Source: Candidatus Tanganyikabacteria bacterium (GTDB lineage: Bacteria; Cyanobacteriota; Sericytochromatia; S15B-MN24; VGJW01). From it: a stretch of DNA of 34,786 bases. Both the position numbers and the translations under genes were made by a program. This document shows positions 1 to 30,291 of this stretch, in pieces. Under the pieces are notes generated by a model. That model worked only from the letters and a program-made list of their open reading frames with translations. It made no database searches and had not been told where the DNA came from. Where the stretch lies: the NCBI GenBank assembly GCA_016867235.1, contig VGJY01000023.1, forward strand, positions 1 to 34,786, in the 5' to 3' direction. Position 1 is the first letter of the stretch; the number at the start of each line of letters is the position of its first letter.

Positions 1-1724
<1,724 letters not shown>

Positions 1725-6410: not shown

Positions 6411-8024
<1,614 letters not shown>

Positions 8025-23263: not shown

Positions 23264-23360
23264 CAAGCGCCCGCGGGCAGGCGCCATACGGGAAATAGCC
23301 GGAGCAGCGGCAGGCTGCGGCGCTCGCCCGCGTGGTATGGTGGGGGGGCTGGAGTTTGCC

Positions 23361-24353
23361 GTGTCCGATCCCTTGGTTTCAGTCGTCGTGCCGTCTTACC
23401 AGCACGCCGAATTCGTCGCCGTGGCGATCGAGAGCGTCCTGGTGCAGACCGTGGCCGATCTCGAAGTCGTCGTGGTCGACGACGGGTCCACCGATGGCAC
23501 GCCGGATATCGTCGCGGCACTGGACGATCCCCGGATCCGCCTGGTGCGCCTCCCCGAGAACCGGCGCGAGCACGCCCGCAACCTCGGGCTGCGCCTGGCT
23601 CGCGGGCGCTTCGTGGCGTTCCAGAACTCCGACGACGAGTGGCTTCCCGGAAAGCTGGCCGCACAGCTTGACGTGCTGGAGCGGCGAGCCGACGTCGGCG
23701 CGGTGTTCACCGCGGTCGAACTCATCGACGAGGATGGGTTGCCGGTCTCGGGCACGTGGGCCGACGGGCAGTTCTGCGACGGAGCGCGCGAGCGCACGTC
23801 GGCCGAGTGGCTCCGGCAGTTCTTCTGGCGCAACTGCCTGTGCATCACGTCCGCCCTGGTCCGCCACGATCTGTTGCGGGAGGTGGGGCGGTTCCGTCCT
23901 TCCCTCGTGCAACTGGCCGACGTCGACCTCTGGATCCGCCTGGCGGCCCGCGCCAACTTGCACGTCGTGCCCGAACCGCTCACCCGGATGCGCATCGGCG
24001 CCCGCAACCTCAGCGCGCCGCACCCGGGCCACCAGGCGCGCATCGCCATGGAGTGGGCCGACGTGTTGGAGAATTACGCCCGCCCGCCCCTGCTGGGCCG
24101 ACTGGCCGAGATCTTCCCGGATGCCTTTCCCGATGGGCCGGACGCGGAGCCGGTGGTGGACCTCGCGGCCTTCGCCTGCCACGCCGCGGCGGGCCGAGAT
24201 CTCTCCCGCCGCCTCCTCGCCGATCGCGTTCTCGGGCGCTTGATCGACGACGACGAAAGCCGGGAGAAGCTCGCCTCGCGGTTCGGCAACCGCATCTTCA
24301 AGCACTTCCTGGATCTGCGGACGCAATGGACGATCTCCGCCGGACAGCCTTGA
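23361..24353 (+). CDS. family 2 glycosyltransferase
   Basis: A 330-aa GT-A fold glycosyltransferase that transfers a sugar from a nucleotide donor. The N-terminal [27 protein letters not shown] and [11 protein letters not shown] are standard GT2 landmarks. NSDDEW holds the metal-binding acidic motif, and ADVDLWIR corresponds to the acceptor-side ED motif. There are no membrane segments, so the product is cytoplasmic or peripheral. The start is GTG at 23361, 6 bases after GGAG (MSDPLVSVV). An upstream in-frame ATG at 23337 would add eight residues through a run of seven G. Its last 28 bases overlap the NDP-hexose 2,3-dehydratase gene, suggesting that both act on the same deoxysugar-containing product. 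Confidence 0.92.
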
Positions 24354-25663
24354 CGGCGCCCTCTCCGGCAGCCGAGCGCATCGCGGCCTGGTTCCAAGAA
24401 CTCCTGCGCGCCGAAGATTTCGCCCTGGATCACGTGCCACTCGCGGACTCGCGGGAGTGGGCGCCGCGCGCCGGCGCCATCCGGCACCGCACCGGCCGCT
24501 TCTTCTCGGTGGTGGGCGTGCGCGCGCGCTTTCCCGACGGGGCGGCCTGCGAGCAGCCGTTGCTCGAGCAGCGAGAGGTCGGCACGCTCCTCTTCCTGGT
24601 CCGCGAGGGCGGCGACCTGCTGGTCCAGGCGAAAGTGGAACCCGGCAACGTGGGCGTCATCCAGCTCGCGCCGACCTTCCAGGCCACGGGCAGCAACGCC
24701 GCCCGGGCGCACGGCGGCGCGCCGCCGCCCCTGCACGAGTGGTGCCTGGGCGTGGCGCATGGGACGTCGGTCGCCAGCACGCTCCAGTCCGAGCAGGGCA
24801 CCCGCTTCCTGGGCAAGCGCAACCGCAACGCCGCGATCCTGGTGGCCGGCGACGTCCCGCACGGGGCGCATCACCGGTGGTTGCCGGCGCGGGAGCTGTG
24901 CTCCCTCCTGGCCGCGGATCACATGGTCAACACGGACGCGCGTTCGGCCCTGCTGTGCATGCCGTGGGACCTTCTCGCGGGGGGCCGCCCGTTCGGCGGC
25001 GACGGCTTCGCGGGCGATCTTCGGGCCTCGCTCGATCTGCCGGATGCTCGGGCCTGGCGCCCCCTGGATGAAGTGGTCGCCGGTCTGGCGGAGCTCGCTC
25101 CCTGGCGCGAGGCGCCGGGGGTTGTGCCGCTCGAGCGGCTGGCGGGCTGGCGCATGGCCGAAGAAGGGCCCGAACCGGCAGGCGGCGGGAGTTTCCGCCT
25201 GCGGCACGTCCGCGTGGCTGCGCGGAGCCGTGAGGTACCGGAATGGGACCAGCCGATCGTCGAGAGCGCTGGCCCGGGCGAGGTGATCCTGCCCGTTGGG
25301 CGTTTCGTTGGTGTTCCCCACTTCCTGTTCCGGCCGGCGGTCGAACCGGGCTTCGGAAGCCGCGTCGAGTTCACGCCCGCCCTGACGGCGCCGCCGGGAG
25401 TGCGGCCGGCGCCGGCCGATTCCTTCGCGGCCGACCTGCGCGCCTTTGGCAGGGAAATCGCGTCTTGCCTGCAATCCGAGGAGGGCGGCCGCTTCCTGCG
25501 GGACGAAAACCGCTACGCCCTGCTGGATGTGGGCGAAGCCACCGACCCGCCCGAGGGCTGGTGCTGGCTCTCGCTGGCGCAGGTACGCGCGCTGCTCGAT
25601 CGCGGGGAGAGCCTCACCAACGAGGCGCGCAGCGCCCTGTCGCTGCTGCTGGGTTGGCTGTAG
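24326..25663 (+). CDS. NDP-hexose 2,3-dehydratase family protein
   Basis: A 445-aa protein of the EvaA/TylCVI-type dehydratases, which remove the C2 hydroxyl of NDP-4-keto-6-deoxyglucose in the first step of 2,6-dideoxysugar formation. The protein is a pseudo-repeat, as in the family. The first half shows IRHRTGRFFSVVGV, QAKVEPGNVGVIQLAPTFQAT and QSEQGTRFLGKRNRN. The second shows WDQPIVES, HFLFRPAVEPGFGSRVEFTP and QSEEGGRFLRDENRY. The start is ATG at 24326, overlapping the glycosyltransferase by 28 bases. A TTG at 24350, overlapping the upstream TGA, is the alternative. None of the usual pathway partners (3-ketoreductase, 4,6-dehydratase, thymidylyltransferase) are adjacent. Its stop codon lies in a hairpin shared with the convergent gene. 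Confidence 0.88.
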   Translation: MDDLRRTALTAPSPAAERIAAWFQELLRAEDFALDHVPLADSREWAPRAGAIRHRTGRFFSVVGVRARFPDGAACEQPLLEQREVGTLLFLVREGGDLLVQAKVEPGNVGVIQLAPTFQATGSNAARAHGGAPPPLHEWCLGVAHGTSVASTLQSEQGTRFLGKRNRNAAILVAGDVPHGAHHRWLPARELCSLLAADHMVNTDARSALLCMPWDLLAGGRPFGGDGFAGDLRASLDLPDARAWRPLDEVVAGLAELAPWREAPGVVPLERLAGWRMAEEGPEPAGGGSFRLRHVRVAARSREVPEWDQPIVESAGPGEVILPVGRFVGVPHFLFRPAVEPGFGSRVEFTPALTAPPGVRPAPADSFAADLRAFGREIASCLQSEEGGRFLRDENRYALLDVGEATDPPEGWCWLSLAQVRALLDRGESLTNEARSALSLLLGWL

Positions 25664-25674
25664 CCGCGCTACAG
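25658..25674. repeat. palindrome containing both convergent stop codons
   Basis: CTGTAGC-CGC-GCTACAG is a perfect 7-bp stem with a 3-base loop. It includes the TAG of the dehydratase (25661-25663) and the TAG of the opposite gene (25669-25671). It could form a small bidirectional hairpin at both 3' ends. No T-run follows on either strand. Confidence 0.5.
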
Positions 25675-27027
25675 GGAAAGCAGCAGGCCGGCCCGCCCGA
25701 TCCAGGCCGCGTCGAGATCGACCTCGCCGGCAAGCCAGCCGTCGGTCTTCCCCAGGCCCTCCAGGCGCAGGGTCGCGCGATCCGAGAGCGGCAGGCCCAG
25801 ACCGAGACGCAACGCTCCGCCGGGACCTTCCGACGTGTCGAGGAAGGATCCGGTCCGGGGCTGGAGCCACGCCACCGCGCCCACATCGACCGCGAGGCGC
25901 AGGTCGCCCAGGCGAACTGGCTGGCGCACCAGGGCGGCCTCGAGGCCGGGGAAGGCGCGCGCGCCGTTGAAGAAGTGGTGGTAGCCCAGGGTCAAGCCGT
26001 GCTCCGGGCTCCGGCTCAGCAGTTCGACCTGCACCACCTGCCCGAAGCTGGTCAGCATGTGCTGGAGGCCGAAGGTCCACTCCCCGTGGCCGGGGATCGC
26101 GAGGGGCGGCAGGCCGAAGAGGTCCGGCGCGGCGAAGTTCAGCAGCGACAGCGTGCGGGCCTGCCCGAGGAAGGCGCGGCCCTCGGCGGACAGGTCGGTG
26201 CTCTTGCGATAGCGGCGGATGCCGACACCGGACGGGTGCGCGCCCCGGCCGTCGTACGCCTCGTTGAAGCGTTCGAGGTCGTACATCCAGGCCAGGCAGT
26301 CGGCCCCGGCGAAATCGCGCCTGGCCATGTCGGCCCCCTCCTGCGCCATCTTCTGGTCCACCATCGCGTCGAAGCCGTCCGACGCGCAGCCTTGCAGGTA
26401 GAAGAAGACGTTGCCCAGGGTCAGGCCGACGGCCGGGATGTCGCGGTACAGGGGCCGGCGATCGAAGAAGGCTTCGTCGCGGATCTCCCTTGCAAGGAGC
26501 ACGTTCGCTTCCATGCCGGCCGCCGAGAGGCGCACGAAATCGCGCGGCCGGGAGCGCTTGAGCGTGGCGAGGGCGTCGTCGGTGACGTGATCGACGGCGA
26601 TGGCGTCGCTGAAAGGCGGGTAGGAGTAGAAGCCGTTGCGGCTGCCGATGCCGTGCCGCGCCATGACCGCCCGGTGCCATTCCTCGTGGGACCACCCGGC
26701 GCCGAGCGGGATCTGCCCGAGCAAGACGGTCGCACCGGCCAGGGCCGGGATCTCCAGGCCGTAGCGCAGCCCCTCGTCCCACCCGGCGGCGAGGTGGTCG
26801 AAACCCAGGTCCACGGCCCAGTCGACGCCCTCGACGAGCGACCGGGTCAGATCGAGGGCCTGCCGCATGGTGGGGACCTGGTAGGCCTGGGCCAGGTTCG
26901 CCGGCGCGTCGACCAGGGTGAGGCGGGGCCGGTACGGCCCGCTGGGCGCGAGCGGTCGCGGTTCGGCCGCGATTGCGGGCGGGGCGAGCAGCGCCAGGGC
27001 GGCGACGACCGGCAGCAGTTCCCTCAT
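25669..27027 (-). CDS. secreted protein with HExxH motif and beta-rich C-terminus
   Basis: A 452-aa protein I cannot assign to a named family. It starts at ATG 27027, 6 bases after GGAGG, with a clear signal peptide (MRELLPVVAALALLAPPAIA, cleavage before AEP), so it is exported. Residues 90-110 are hydrophobic, followed directly by WSHEEWHRAVM. His114-Glu115-xx-His118 fits the zinc-metalloprotease HExxH pattern, and downstream Glu/Asp/His candidates exist but no third ligand is obvious. The last third alternates polar and hydrophobic residues like beta strands, suggesting an outer-membrane or barrel-like region, though it ends in LLLSL rather than a terminal Phe. It diverges from pepC by 101 bp. 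Confidence 0.7.
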   Translation of the reverse strand: MRELLPVVAALALLAPPAIAAEPRPLAPSGPYRPRLTLVDAPANLAQAYQVPTMRQALDLTRSLVEGVDWAVDLGFDHLAAGWDEGLRYGLEIPALAGATVLLGQIPLGAGWSHEEWHRAVMARHGIGSRNGFYSYPPFSDAIAVDHVTDDALATLKRSRPRDFVRLSAAGMEANVLLAREIRDEAFFDRRPLYRDIPAVGLTLGNVFFYLQGCASDGFDAMVDQKMAQEGADMARRDFAGADCLAWMYDLERFNEAYDGRGAHPSGVGIRRYRKSTDLSAEGRAFLGQARTLSLLNFAAPDLFGLPPLAIPGHGEWTFGLQHMLTSFGQVVQVELLSRSPEHGLTLGYHHFFNGARAFPGLEAALVRQPVRLGDLRLAVDVGAVAWLQPRTGSFLDTSEGPGGALRLGLGLPLSDRATLRLEGLGKTDGWLAGEVDLDAAWIGRAGLLLSL

Positions 27028-28510: not shown

Positions 28511-29788
28511 CTATCTCTCGAAGGTCGTCGCCTGGCCCGATAGGGTCATGGCCGCCGGATCCGCGGGGCAAGCGGCGCTGTTCGTGACGTTCTCGACCTG
28601 GAGGTGCAAGGCGTCGACCAGTCGGACGAGCAGGATGCCGGTCGGCCGGGTCAACGGCAGGCCGCCGGTCGTGCGGCCGGTGGCGAAAGCGTCGTAGCAG
28701 TAGGGGCCGTCGGCCTTGACGTCGCGCCAGTCGCGGTTGGCCCGCCCGGTCGTGGCGAGGGGCGCCTTGATGCCCACGATGCCCGTGAGGCCGCCTTTCA
28801 GGGCCGAGGCGCCGATCGACAGCAGGGCCTCGCCATCGTAGGCGACGTAGTCGTGTACCAGGGCGAGTGCCGTCGGCTCGAAAGGAGTTCCCTGCGTGGA
28901 AGGGAAGCGTCCCTCGGAGAACCAGTTGCCCTGGGCGGTTCCCTCGAGGTCCTGGACGTACTCGCCGTGGAGGGGCAGGGCCGTGCGTTTCACGCGTCGG
29001 TCCATCACGCTCCCGAGCGACGCGGCGATCGCCGCGCGGGCGTCAGGCGCGAGGTACGGGACGGGCGACACGTACGGGCGGTAGCCCGAGTAATGGCCGG
29101 GAACCGCATGCTTGTTGGCGACGACGCGCTTGTCGTAGGCGCCGAAGTCAACGCCGGCGCCGTCGCCCGATCGGCCGAGTACCTCGCCGGCCTTGACCGG
29201 GACAAGGACCTTCTTGTCGCAGCTCGTCTTGTCGCCGCCCTGCAAGGGCGTGTAGCGGCAGTCCGGATCGGACCGCTCGTCGACCAGGACCCTGGCCAGT
29301 TCGGCCGCGAGCGGCTCGGAGAGCTGCTTCAAATGGTTGAAGTACGTGACGAATTCGGCGCATGGCTGGAAGTAGACCTGGTAGTTGATCCCGCCGCCGA
29401 TCGCCACCTTGTTGATCAGCGCGACCCACCCGTCGGCCGGCGCCCTGACCGGCCGCACGTCCGCCACGGTCTGGCCGGGTTCCGCGATCGCGAAGCTGGA
29501 GTGGTAAGCCGGCAGCACCCAGATCGGGTGCGAGATGAAGCCCAGGGGGCGGAACGCGACGTAGTCTCCCGGGGCCATCGGGACCACCGAGAGCAGCGGT
29601 GTCGCGACGTCTCCCGGGCACGCCGGCAGGGTCGGGTTGAAACCGGGCTGCACCCAGTCGATCCGCGCTCCGGCCGGCAACTGGGCGCTGCCGGCTGCCG
29701 GTGCACCGGCCGTTTGGGGCGCCAGAGCACAAGCCGCGCTGGCGATCGCCAGGACGACGGCCGGATAGCCCCTCGGGGTCAGAACCAT
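28511..29788 (-). CDS. secreted protein with degenerate M23/LytM-like domain
   Basis: A 425-aa exported protein. The N-terminus is a signal sequence ending in SAAC with Cys20, a weak lipobox, so it may be a lipoprotein. Residues about 90-220 resemble the M23 peptidase/lipoyl-like beta fold: PADGWVALI, YFNHLKQLS, VPVKAGEVLGRSG and VDFGAYD. The zinc ligands are mostly missing: HxxxD reads HSSFA (His96) and the HxH position reads FNH (His152). An enzymatically dead, binding role is therefore more likely than hydrolysis. The C-terminal 150 residues are unrecognised and contain paired cysteines. The start is ATG at 29788, overlapping the upstream barrel-like gene by 10 bases, so they are co-translated. 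The fold assignment is inference. Confidence 0.72.
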   Translation of the reverse strand: MVLTPRGYPAVVLAIASAACALAPQTAGAPAAGSAQLPAGARIDWVQPGFNPTLPACPGDVATPLLSVVPMAPGDYVAFRPLGFISHPIWVLPAYHSSFAIAEPGQTVADVRPVRAPADGWVALINKVAIGGGINYQVYFQPCAEFVTYFNHLKQLSEPLAAELARVLVDERSDPDCRYTPLQGGDKTSCDKKVLVPVKAGEVLGRSGDGAGVDFGAYDKRVVANKHAVPGHYSGYRPYVSPVPYLAPDARAAIAASLGSVMDRRVKRTALPLHGEYVQDLEGTAQGNWFSEGRFPSTQGTPFEPTALALVHDYVAYDGEALLSIGASALKGGLTGIVGIKAPLATTGRANRDWRDVKADGPYCYDAFATGRTTGGLPLTRPTGILLVRLVDALHLQVENVTNSAACPADPAAMTLSGQATTFER

Positions 29789-30291
29789 CGGCTCAGGCCG
29801 AGCCTGATGAAGGGACCGGCCAGTTCGCCCTGGCCGGGGCCGAGCCTTACATAGGCGTAACCGGCGTCGGCCGCGGCGTGGAAGCCGCCGGGCAGCGCGA
29901 GGTCGGCGCCCCCGGATGCGAAGGCCTGGTAGGTTAGGACGCCCTCGGTCGGCGTGTCCCAGTCGATCGCCTGCAAGCCGCCGCCGGTCGTCTGGAAGAA
30001 CGTGAACACCCCGGGGATCAGCGGGAACTGGTGATCGAGGCGGCCAATGACCGACACGCCCGGTGGACCGGTGAGGAGCTGCATGTAGCCGACCTCGACG
30101 CCTACCTTCCGCCCCCGCCCGAGTTCGCCCAGATCGAGCCCCACGCCGTTCATCGCGCCCGACAGGCCGGCCGGCGTGAACTGGATGCGGTTGACGTAGC
30201 CGATGGCGCCGCCGAAGTGCCCGTGCGCTTCTGCAGGCGCGGCAAAGAGCGCGATGAGGGCCGCGCTCGCGGCCAGGCGTGCGATCTCCAT
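29779..30291 (-). CDS. small predicted outer-membrane beta-barrel protein
   Basis: A 170-aa protein starting at ATG 30291 with a typical signal peptide (MEIARLAASAALIALF, cleaved after AEA). The mature part begins HGHFGG and alternates short polar and hydrophobic stretches rich in Gly and aromatic residues. It ends in IRLGLSRWF. A terminal Phe after an amphipathic strand is the recognition signal for outer-membrane barrel insertion in diderms. The size suits an eight-strand barrel. No enzyme motif is seen. Its last 10 bases overlap the M23-like gene downstream, so the two form a pair. Upstream, 109 bp separate it from the divergent small gene at 30401. Confidence 0.72.
   Translation of the reverse strand: MEIARLAASAALIALFAAPAEAHGHFGGAIGYVNRIQFTPAGLSGAMNGVGLDLGELGRGRKVGVEVGYMQLLTGPPGVSVIGRLDHQFPLIPGVFTFFQTTGGGLQAIDWDTPTEGVLTYQAFASGGADLALPGGFHAAADAGYAYVRLGPGQGELAGPFIRLGLSRWF

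Follow-up and report, generated by a model that had tools for sequence, protein, structure and literature searches.

A putative outer-membrane-anchored zinc metallopeptidase family with a helical HExxH domain inserted in a predicted β-barrel

Few proteases are integral to the outer membrane and, to our knowledge, none of these is a zinc enzyme. In the omptins, such as OmpT and Pla, the active-site residues belong to the barrel itself. M48 peptidases use Glu as the third zinc ligand, pallilysin is surface-exposed, and the HExxH motif is also found in proteins that are not peptidases. Site-2 proteases are described as having HExxH on one helix and, on another, an LDG motif that coordinates zinc (PMC10202637), BepA as a periplasmic M48 zinc metallopeptidase with a function connected to the outer membrane (PMC8423444), and pallilysin of Treponema pallidum as an HEXXH metalloprotease (PMC3406077). 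Here, we compare with these systems a gene from a Candidatus Tanganyikabacteria genome, whose product we consider reasonably likely to be an outer-membrane-anchored zinc metallopeptidase of an unnamed family, with a helical domain inserted in its barrel.

The window, that is, the whole stretch of DNA analysed, comprises 34,786 nucleotides of contig VGJY01000023.1. A first-pass annotation of the sequence had placed an unrecognised secreted protein at 25669-27027; the open reading frame confirms these coordinates and assigns the gene to the minus strand, with an ATG at 27027, 452 codons plus a stop, and GC of 0.75/0.49/0.92 at codon positions 1/2/3. The product begins MRELLPVVAALALLAPPAIA, and homologues can be aligned over almost its full length. 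Residues 1-20 (26968..27027, minus strand) resemble a signal peptide by hydropathy (Kyte-Doolittle 1.91 over residues 3-21), with a cleavage site placed by eye between AIA and A, in agreement with the cleavable signal claimed in the annotation; an 11-residue run with a Kyte-Doolittle value of at least 2 lies close to the N-terminus in 40 of 45 aligned members of the family. The gene is solitary, being convergent with an NDP-hexose 2,3-dehydratase gene (PF03559) and divergent from a C1-like peptidase gene (PF03051), and no informative neighbour was seen at the window locus. A glycosyltransferase family 2 gene followed by the dehydratase gene occupies 23337-25663 on the plus strand, and 28514-29854 on the minus strand encodes a secreted-looking protein that has no Pfam match (E ≤ 0.01) and whose middle is M23-peptidase-like by eye.

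No family in Pfam (E ≤ 10), NCBIfam (E ≤ 10) or PHROGs (E ≤ 1) matches the window protein, and a literature search, in a collection that leaves out many journals, returned no account of such a family. The protein belongs to a real, conserved family, undescribed in any library searched, with 51 distinct members including the window protein. Initial scans for related loci with the single window protein as the query found no relatives; the first to emerge were on two Spirosoma plasmids (E = 4e-49 and 2e-47; 30.8% identity over 90%), and 13 further loci were found among genome contigs, from 47 pattern-matched stretches. Profile searches, each tally of which counts genomes previously known as carriers, were positive for 25 of 200 genomes of the Telluribacter family, 11 of 199 of the Saprospiraceae, 8 of 222 in an order sample and 2 of 395 in one Bacteroidota sample; the single positives among 200 Gemmatimonadota genomes and among 98 relatives of the window genome were, respectively, the already known genome and the window genome itself. 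A tblastn search at E ≤ 1 yielded weak short pieces in 18 of 386 genomes of the phylum, the gene's own genome among the 18, and no relative was found in the viral contigs and phages searched. The family is thus rare and patchy. Named carriers are Bacteroidota, one Gemmatimonadota metagenome-assembled genome (MAG) and one Treponema MAG (Spirochaetota), and all three phyla are diderm. Identity to the window protein is 37.4% for the nearest relative, a Longimicrobiaceae MAG protein, and falls to 21% within the family; the window protein sits on a long tree branch, so its exact placement is unsure.

The counts exclude duplicates of loci already counted (L035, L037, L039-L042, L063, L129 and L134), an 85-aa fragment with two stops (L062), and a set of disrupted or incomplete genes (L072/L074/L075 and L073), in which HEEYHR and HEESHR are still visible; L136 was retained although a contig end cuts the gene. 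Weak Pfam and NCBIfam lines (DUF3575, 0.029; SctI, 0.0027, in one member; and others, some below the cut-off) were rejected, as they differ from member to member. In the Treponema MAG, as in a Bacteroidales MAG, the family gene adjoins a related gene that appears topA-like by eye (L025:2840-4933 and L026:785-3424, both plus strand), though on different sides; shared transfer or mis-binning of the MAGs may account for this.

Neighbour clustering revealed no conserved neighbour in the main clade; it also grouped a 374-aa protein of L110, a main-clade locus, with exporters. Six loci of a divergent clade were read (L114-L117, L127 and L128), and five of these contain at least one export-type feature, either a double-glycine-leader peptide or C39-ABC export genes. 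A peptide-export-type ABC transporter is encoded in L115, L116, L127 and L128, with the C39 domain confirmed by Pfam in the last three, and with Pfam ABC domains and a C39-like start in L115. HlyD-like genes are present in L115, L127 and L128, and L117 has a BLAST-related fragment without a family match. Small double-glycine-leader-like ORFs adjoin the family gene in L115 (7444-7647, minus strand), L117 (7418-7528, minus), L127 (7598-7774, plus) and L128 (1181-1360, plus); in a scan covering the ORFs of L115, L127 and L128, bacteriocin profiles matched only those of L115 and L128, weakly and below the cut-off. Within the stretch read, L114 has no exporter, HlyD-like gene or leader-like ORF. 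A C39 regular expression run over the 51 loci found three, all in the divergent clade; it failed to detect L128 and is thus not fully sensitive. The leader-like ORFs, mostly accompanied by C39-ABC and HlyD genes, mark candidate bacteriocin-type export loci in the Telluribacter family, hinting at exported peptides as substrates. None of the export-type genes was seen at the window locus, so the argument for a peptide substrate is indirect for the family as a whole; it suggests exported or hostile antimicrobial peptides, which for the solitary window gene is extrapolation only. As a separate observation, the family gene of the divergent clade is directly followed by one for a secreted-looking protein of ~140-150 aa (L128:2746-3195, plus strand, matching DUF2846 with E = 3e-10; L114:7005-7427 and 7453-7875, plus; L115:5562-5978, minus).

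An AlphaFold model of the full-length protein, built from 14 family sequences, the only ones used in structure prediction (pLDDT 83.1, pTM 0.84), predicts a strand at residues 35-42, helices across 54-298 and strands across 309-451, the last of these matching the β-rich C-terminus of the first-pass annotation. The C-terminal barrel strands are assigned to residues 305-452 (25672..26115, minus strand) from the model, structure matches and hydropathy alternation, and residues 31-42 (26902..26937, minus strand) are read as barrel strand 1 from the DSSP strand at 35-42, porin alignments and alternation. The Foldseek matches listed for the barrel part are outer-membrane barrels (best E = 4.5e-3, with low TM). 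In VIA-align the best row is PorB (Z 8.7, rmsd 4.8, 205 aligned, model 31..452), and the porin alignments run from model residue 28-36 to 452. Across 44 members, the hydropathy alternation of the strands was matched by none of 5000 shuffles; segments 35-42 and 358-373 show no alternation in the register tested, and residues 31-39 alternate to an extent equalled in 219 of 5000 shuffles. The predictions thus comprise the signal peptide, amphipathic strands and barrel fold of an outer-membrane barrel. The original proposal of a membrane-embedded protein survives with this barrel as the most likely anchor, in preference to the hydrophobic helix, whose hydropathy is modest. The model does place a helix (85-103) just ahead of the HExxH helix (110-123), as had been claimed, and the stretch preceding the motif (93-111) is hydrophobic only to a Kyte-Doolittle value of 1.40.

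When residues 31-42 and 305-311 are counted, the barrel has ten strands, an even number that would keep the N- and C-terminus on the periplasmic side and place the helical domain in the first loop, outside the cell. DSSP assigns only 309-311 of strand 305-311, and strand 35-42 sits in a low-pLDDT stretch; with two strands this weak, both the count of ten and the outward orientation depend in part on parity and on loop conservation. The long loops on the domain side are more conserved than the short turns (mean 0.56 over 32 columns vs 0.23 over 13 columns), which would fit loops turned towards the catalytic domain. The modelled architecture is therefore probably that of an outer-membrane barrel of ten strands in which the first loop accommodates the helical domain, probably on the extracellular side. 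The same enzyme could also be placed on the opposite side of the membrane, with an eight-stranded barrel (315-451) and a periplasmic peptidase domain acting on envelope proteins or exported peptides. Strands 315-451 alone do form an even barrel, strands 35-42 and 309-311 are short, and the exporter-linked clade would suit a peptidase on the export path; however, the conserved long loops would then face away from the catalytic domain, and the porin alignments take residues from 28-36 onward as the first strand. We consider this periplasmic arrangement unlikely, though it is the strongest of the alternatives.

The proposed zinc-binding and catalytic motif, HEEWH, occupies residues 114-118 (26674..26688, minus strand), as first annotated, and is the sole HExxH among the 156 stop-to-stop frames of at least 100 aa in the window. 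Because about 1% of shuffled versions of the window protein (219 of 20,000) contain HExxH, the motif by itself is weak and its conservation is decisive. In the 51-row alignment, HExxH is intact in all members except L061 and L136 (49 of 51), extending to proteins only 21% identical to the window protein, a conservation that is partly ascertained in those loci found with a pattern containing HEE; among the 35 members recovered by the whole-length profile, a set that excludes those from the short sequence pattern or the plasmid search, 33 have it. The first-pass annotation had made its zinc-protease reading depend on conservation of HExxH among homologues, and the alignment shows this conservation.

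Twenty-four columns are near-invariant, that is, identical in at least 48 of the 49 HExxH-bearing members, and only four of these, E115, H118, R119 and D243, are altered in both L061 and L136; both retain seven near-invariant residues (D150, L153, G171, R272, N297, P301 and G329). H114 is missing from L061 but not from L136, and at D238, conserved almost as well as D243, L061 has a gap and L136 retains the residue. Since D243 is lost together with HExxH in the same two members, it is the best candidate for the third zinc ligand, and probably is that ligand. This residue closes RDFAGAD (residues 237-243; 26299..26319, minus strand) and is shared by 49 of 51 members; across the family the site takes the form RDxxGxD, mostly continuing as FTAW or LTAW. 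E173 was rejected as the third ligand, since its position varies (E in 37, Q in 10 and H in 4 of the 51 members); it lies in AGMEAN (residues 170-175; 26503..26520, minus strand), which contains the invariant G171 and resembles the AGPxAN of site-2 proteases by eye. The alignment has no near-invariant Glu column outside the motif, so the downstream Glu ligand of a gluzincin (M48-type) is missing. Judged from the alignment, the joint loss provides the strongest argument for a metal-binding or catalytic role of HExxH with D243, and, together with the conservation of HExxH and the lack of a catalogued family, it supports well the earlier suggestion of a new metallopeptidase. L061 (L117:5995-7257, minus strand) and L136 may be inactive paralogues, and one of them adjoins a leader-peptide-like ORF.

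These residues also bear on whether the protein might be a zinc-binding or HExxH-bearing outer-membrane protein other than a peptidase, such as another hydrolase, a metal scavenger or a structural protein. HExxH does occur outside peptidases, and two members persist without it; yet the catalytic-type Glu is as conserved as both His residues, and E115, H118 and D243 are lost jointly, which makes a non-peptidase distinctly improbable. A chance HExxH in an ordinary porin-like protein, at the rate seen in the shuffles, is rejected by the conservation of the motif throughout the family, including the profile-found members, and deserves hardly any credence.

The helical HExxH domain (residues 43-304; 26116..26901, minus strand) appears in the full-length model and when modelled alone (pLDDT 86.9, pTM 0.85). 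Its top VIA-align row is the RseP orthologue 7w6y (Z 7.5, rmsd 3.0 Å, 128 aligned, 20% identity; domain model 56..218 vs chain 9..410), followed by a row with Z 5.3; one RseP entry alone is present among the best 50 rows, and other site-2 structures are not in those 50. For helical domains, a VIA-align Z below ~13 can reflect a common helical arrangement, and with Z 7.5 the RseP match is accordingly a lead. Counted by hand from the alignment ends, not by residue-level superposition, HExxH and D243 fall within ~3 residues of HEWGH 22-26 and the LDG Asp (~395) of 7w6y, and AGMEAN is similar by eye to AGPMAN of that chain. Foldseek with the domain alone gave nothing below E = 0.1 (best E = 0.13), and a BFVD search nothing below E = 0.57, with a phage 'Peptidase M50' at rank 6 (E = 1.3, TM 0.32/0.42). 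The M50 profile gave no Pfam match for the window protein (E ≤ 10) or for 14 members (E ≤ 1), and hhalign against two M50 alignments gave probabilities of 0.54% and 0.10%. As sequence profiles are unsupportive, we do not file the protein in M50. PDB sequence profile searches returned only the phage fibre 7zlv (E = 0.0088 and 0.0038, ~70 residues around RDFTG); this alignment of straight-fibre chain i with the domain profile (164-233, RDFTGxD) is probably a chance local match.

The family shares with site-2 proteases (M50, RseP) a helix bearing HExxH and, further along the chain, a conserved Asp opening another helix, and with RseP, its best solved-structure match, a helical core with an AG-containing helix between both motifs. 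Unlike M50, it has no LDG motif, its Asp sitting in RDxxGxD, and it has a signal-peptide-like N-terminus, a fused barrel and modestly hydrophobic helices, with no PDZ domain seen. Site-2 proteases have three membrane helices at the core of their fold, with an active site lying in the membrane; here the structural match to 7w6y stands beside a hydropathy of no more than 1.40 over the 19 residues ahead of the motif. With omptins it would share the status of an outer-membrane barrel protease, an active site proposed at the outer rim and possibly the number of strands, predicted here as ten, two of them weak; Pla is Foldseek rank 5 (E = 0.01, TM 0.14/0.21, rmsd 15.1). The omptin profile gave no Pfam match for the window protein (E ≤ 10) or 14 members (E ≤ 1) and, unlike omptins, the family carries HExxH in a separate inserted domain of 260 residues. 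BepA is likewise a zinc metallopeptidase related to the outer membrane, a putative assignment here, but it is described as periplasmic, and no M48 profile match was found for the window protein (E ≤ 10) or 14 members (E ≤ 1). Pallilysin, as described, is also an HEXXH protein of a diderm bacterium, but no family profile joins the two, which are likened by description alone.

In the mechanism that we propose, an export signal would direct the protein to the periplasm, and the mature form would insert in the outer membrane with both termini on the periplasmic side. The helical domain would face outward, packed on the conserved rim loops 326-329, 354-357, 390-400 and 428-440. Zinc would be held by H114, H118 and D243, with water activated by E115, as in site-2 proteases, and the most likely substrates would be peptides or proteins located in the outer leaflet or on the cell surface. 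In its fullest form, which we offer as a tentative possibility well short of a probable one, this would be a new peptidase family in which the first loop of a ten-stranded outer-membrane barrel bears a zinc active site resembling that of site-2 proteases and cuts surface or outer-leaflet peptides; in one clade, the enzyme would provide immunity or maturation for a Gram-negative bacteriocin system of the double-glycine-leader type.

If this reading is true, an HExxH peptidase fused to a barrel would enlarge the group of outer-membrane proteases and would represent a novel bacterial route to peptide cutting at the cell surface, possibly an outer-membrane counterpart of site-2 proteolysis. The exporter-linked clade would then allow direct testing of the ways in which some Bacteroidota bring their own peptides to maturity or withstand them.
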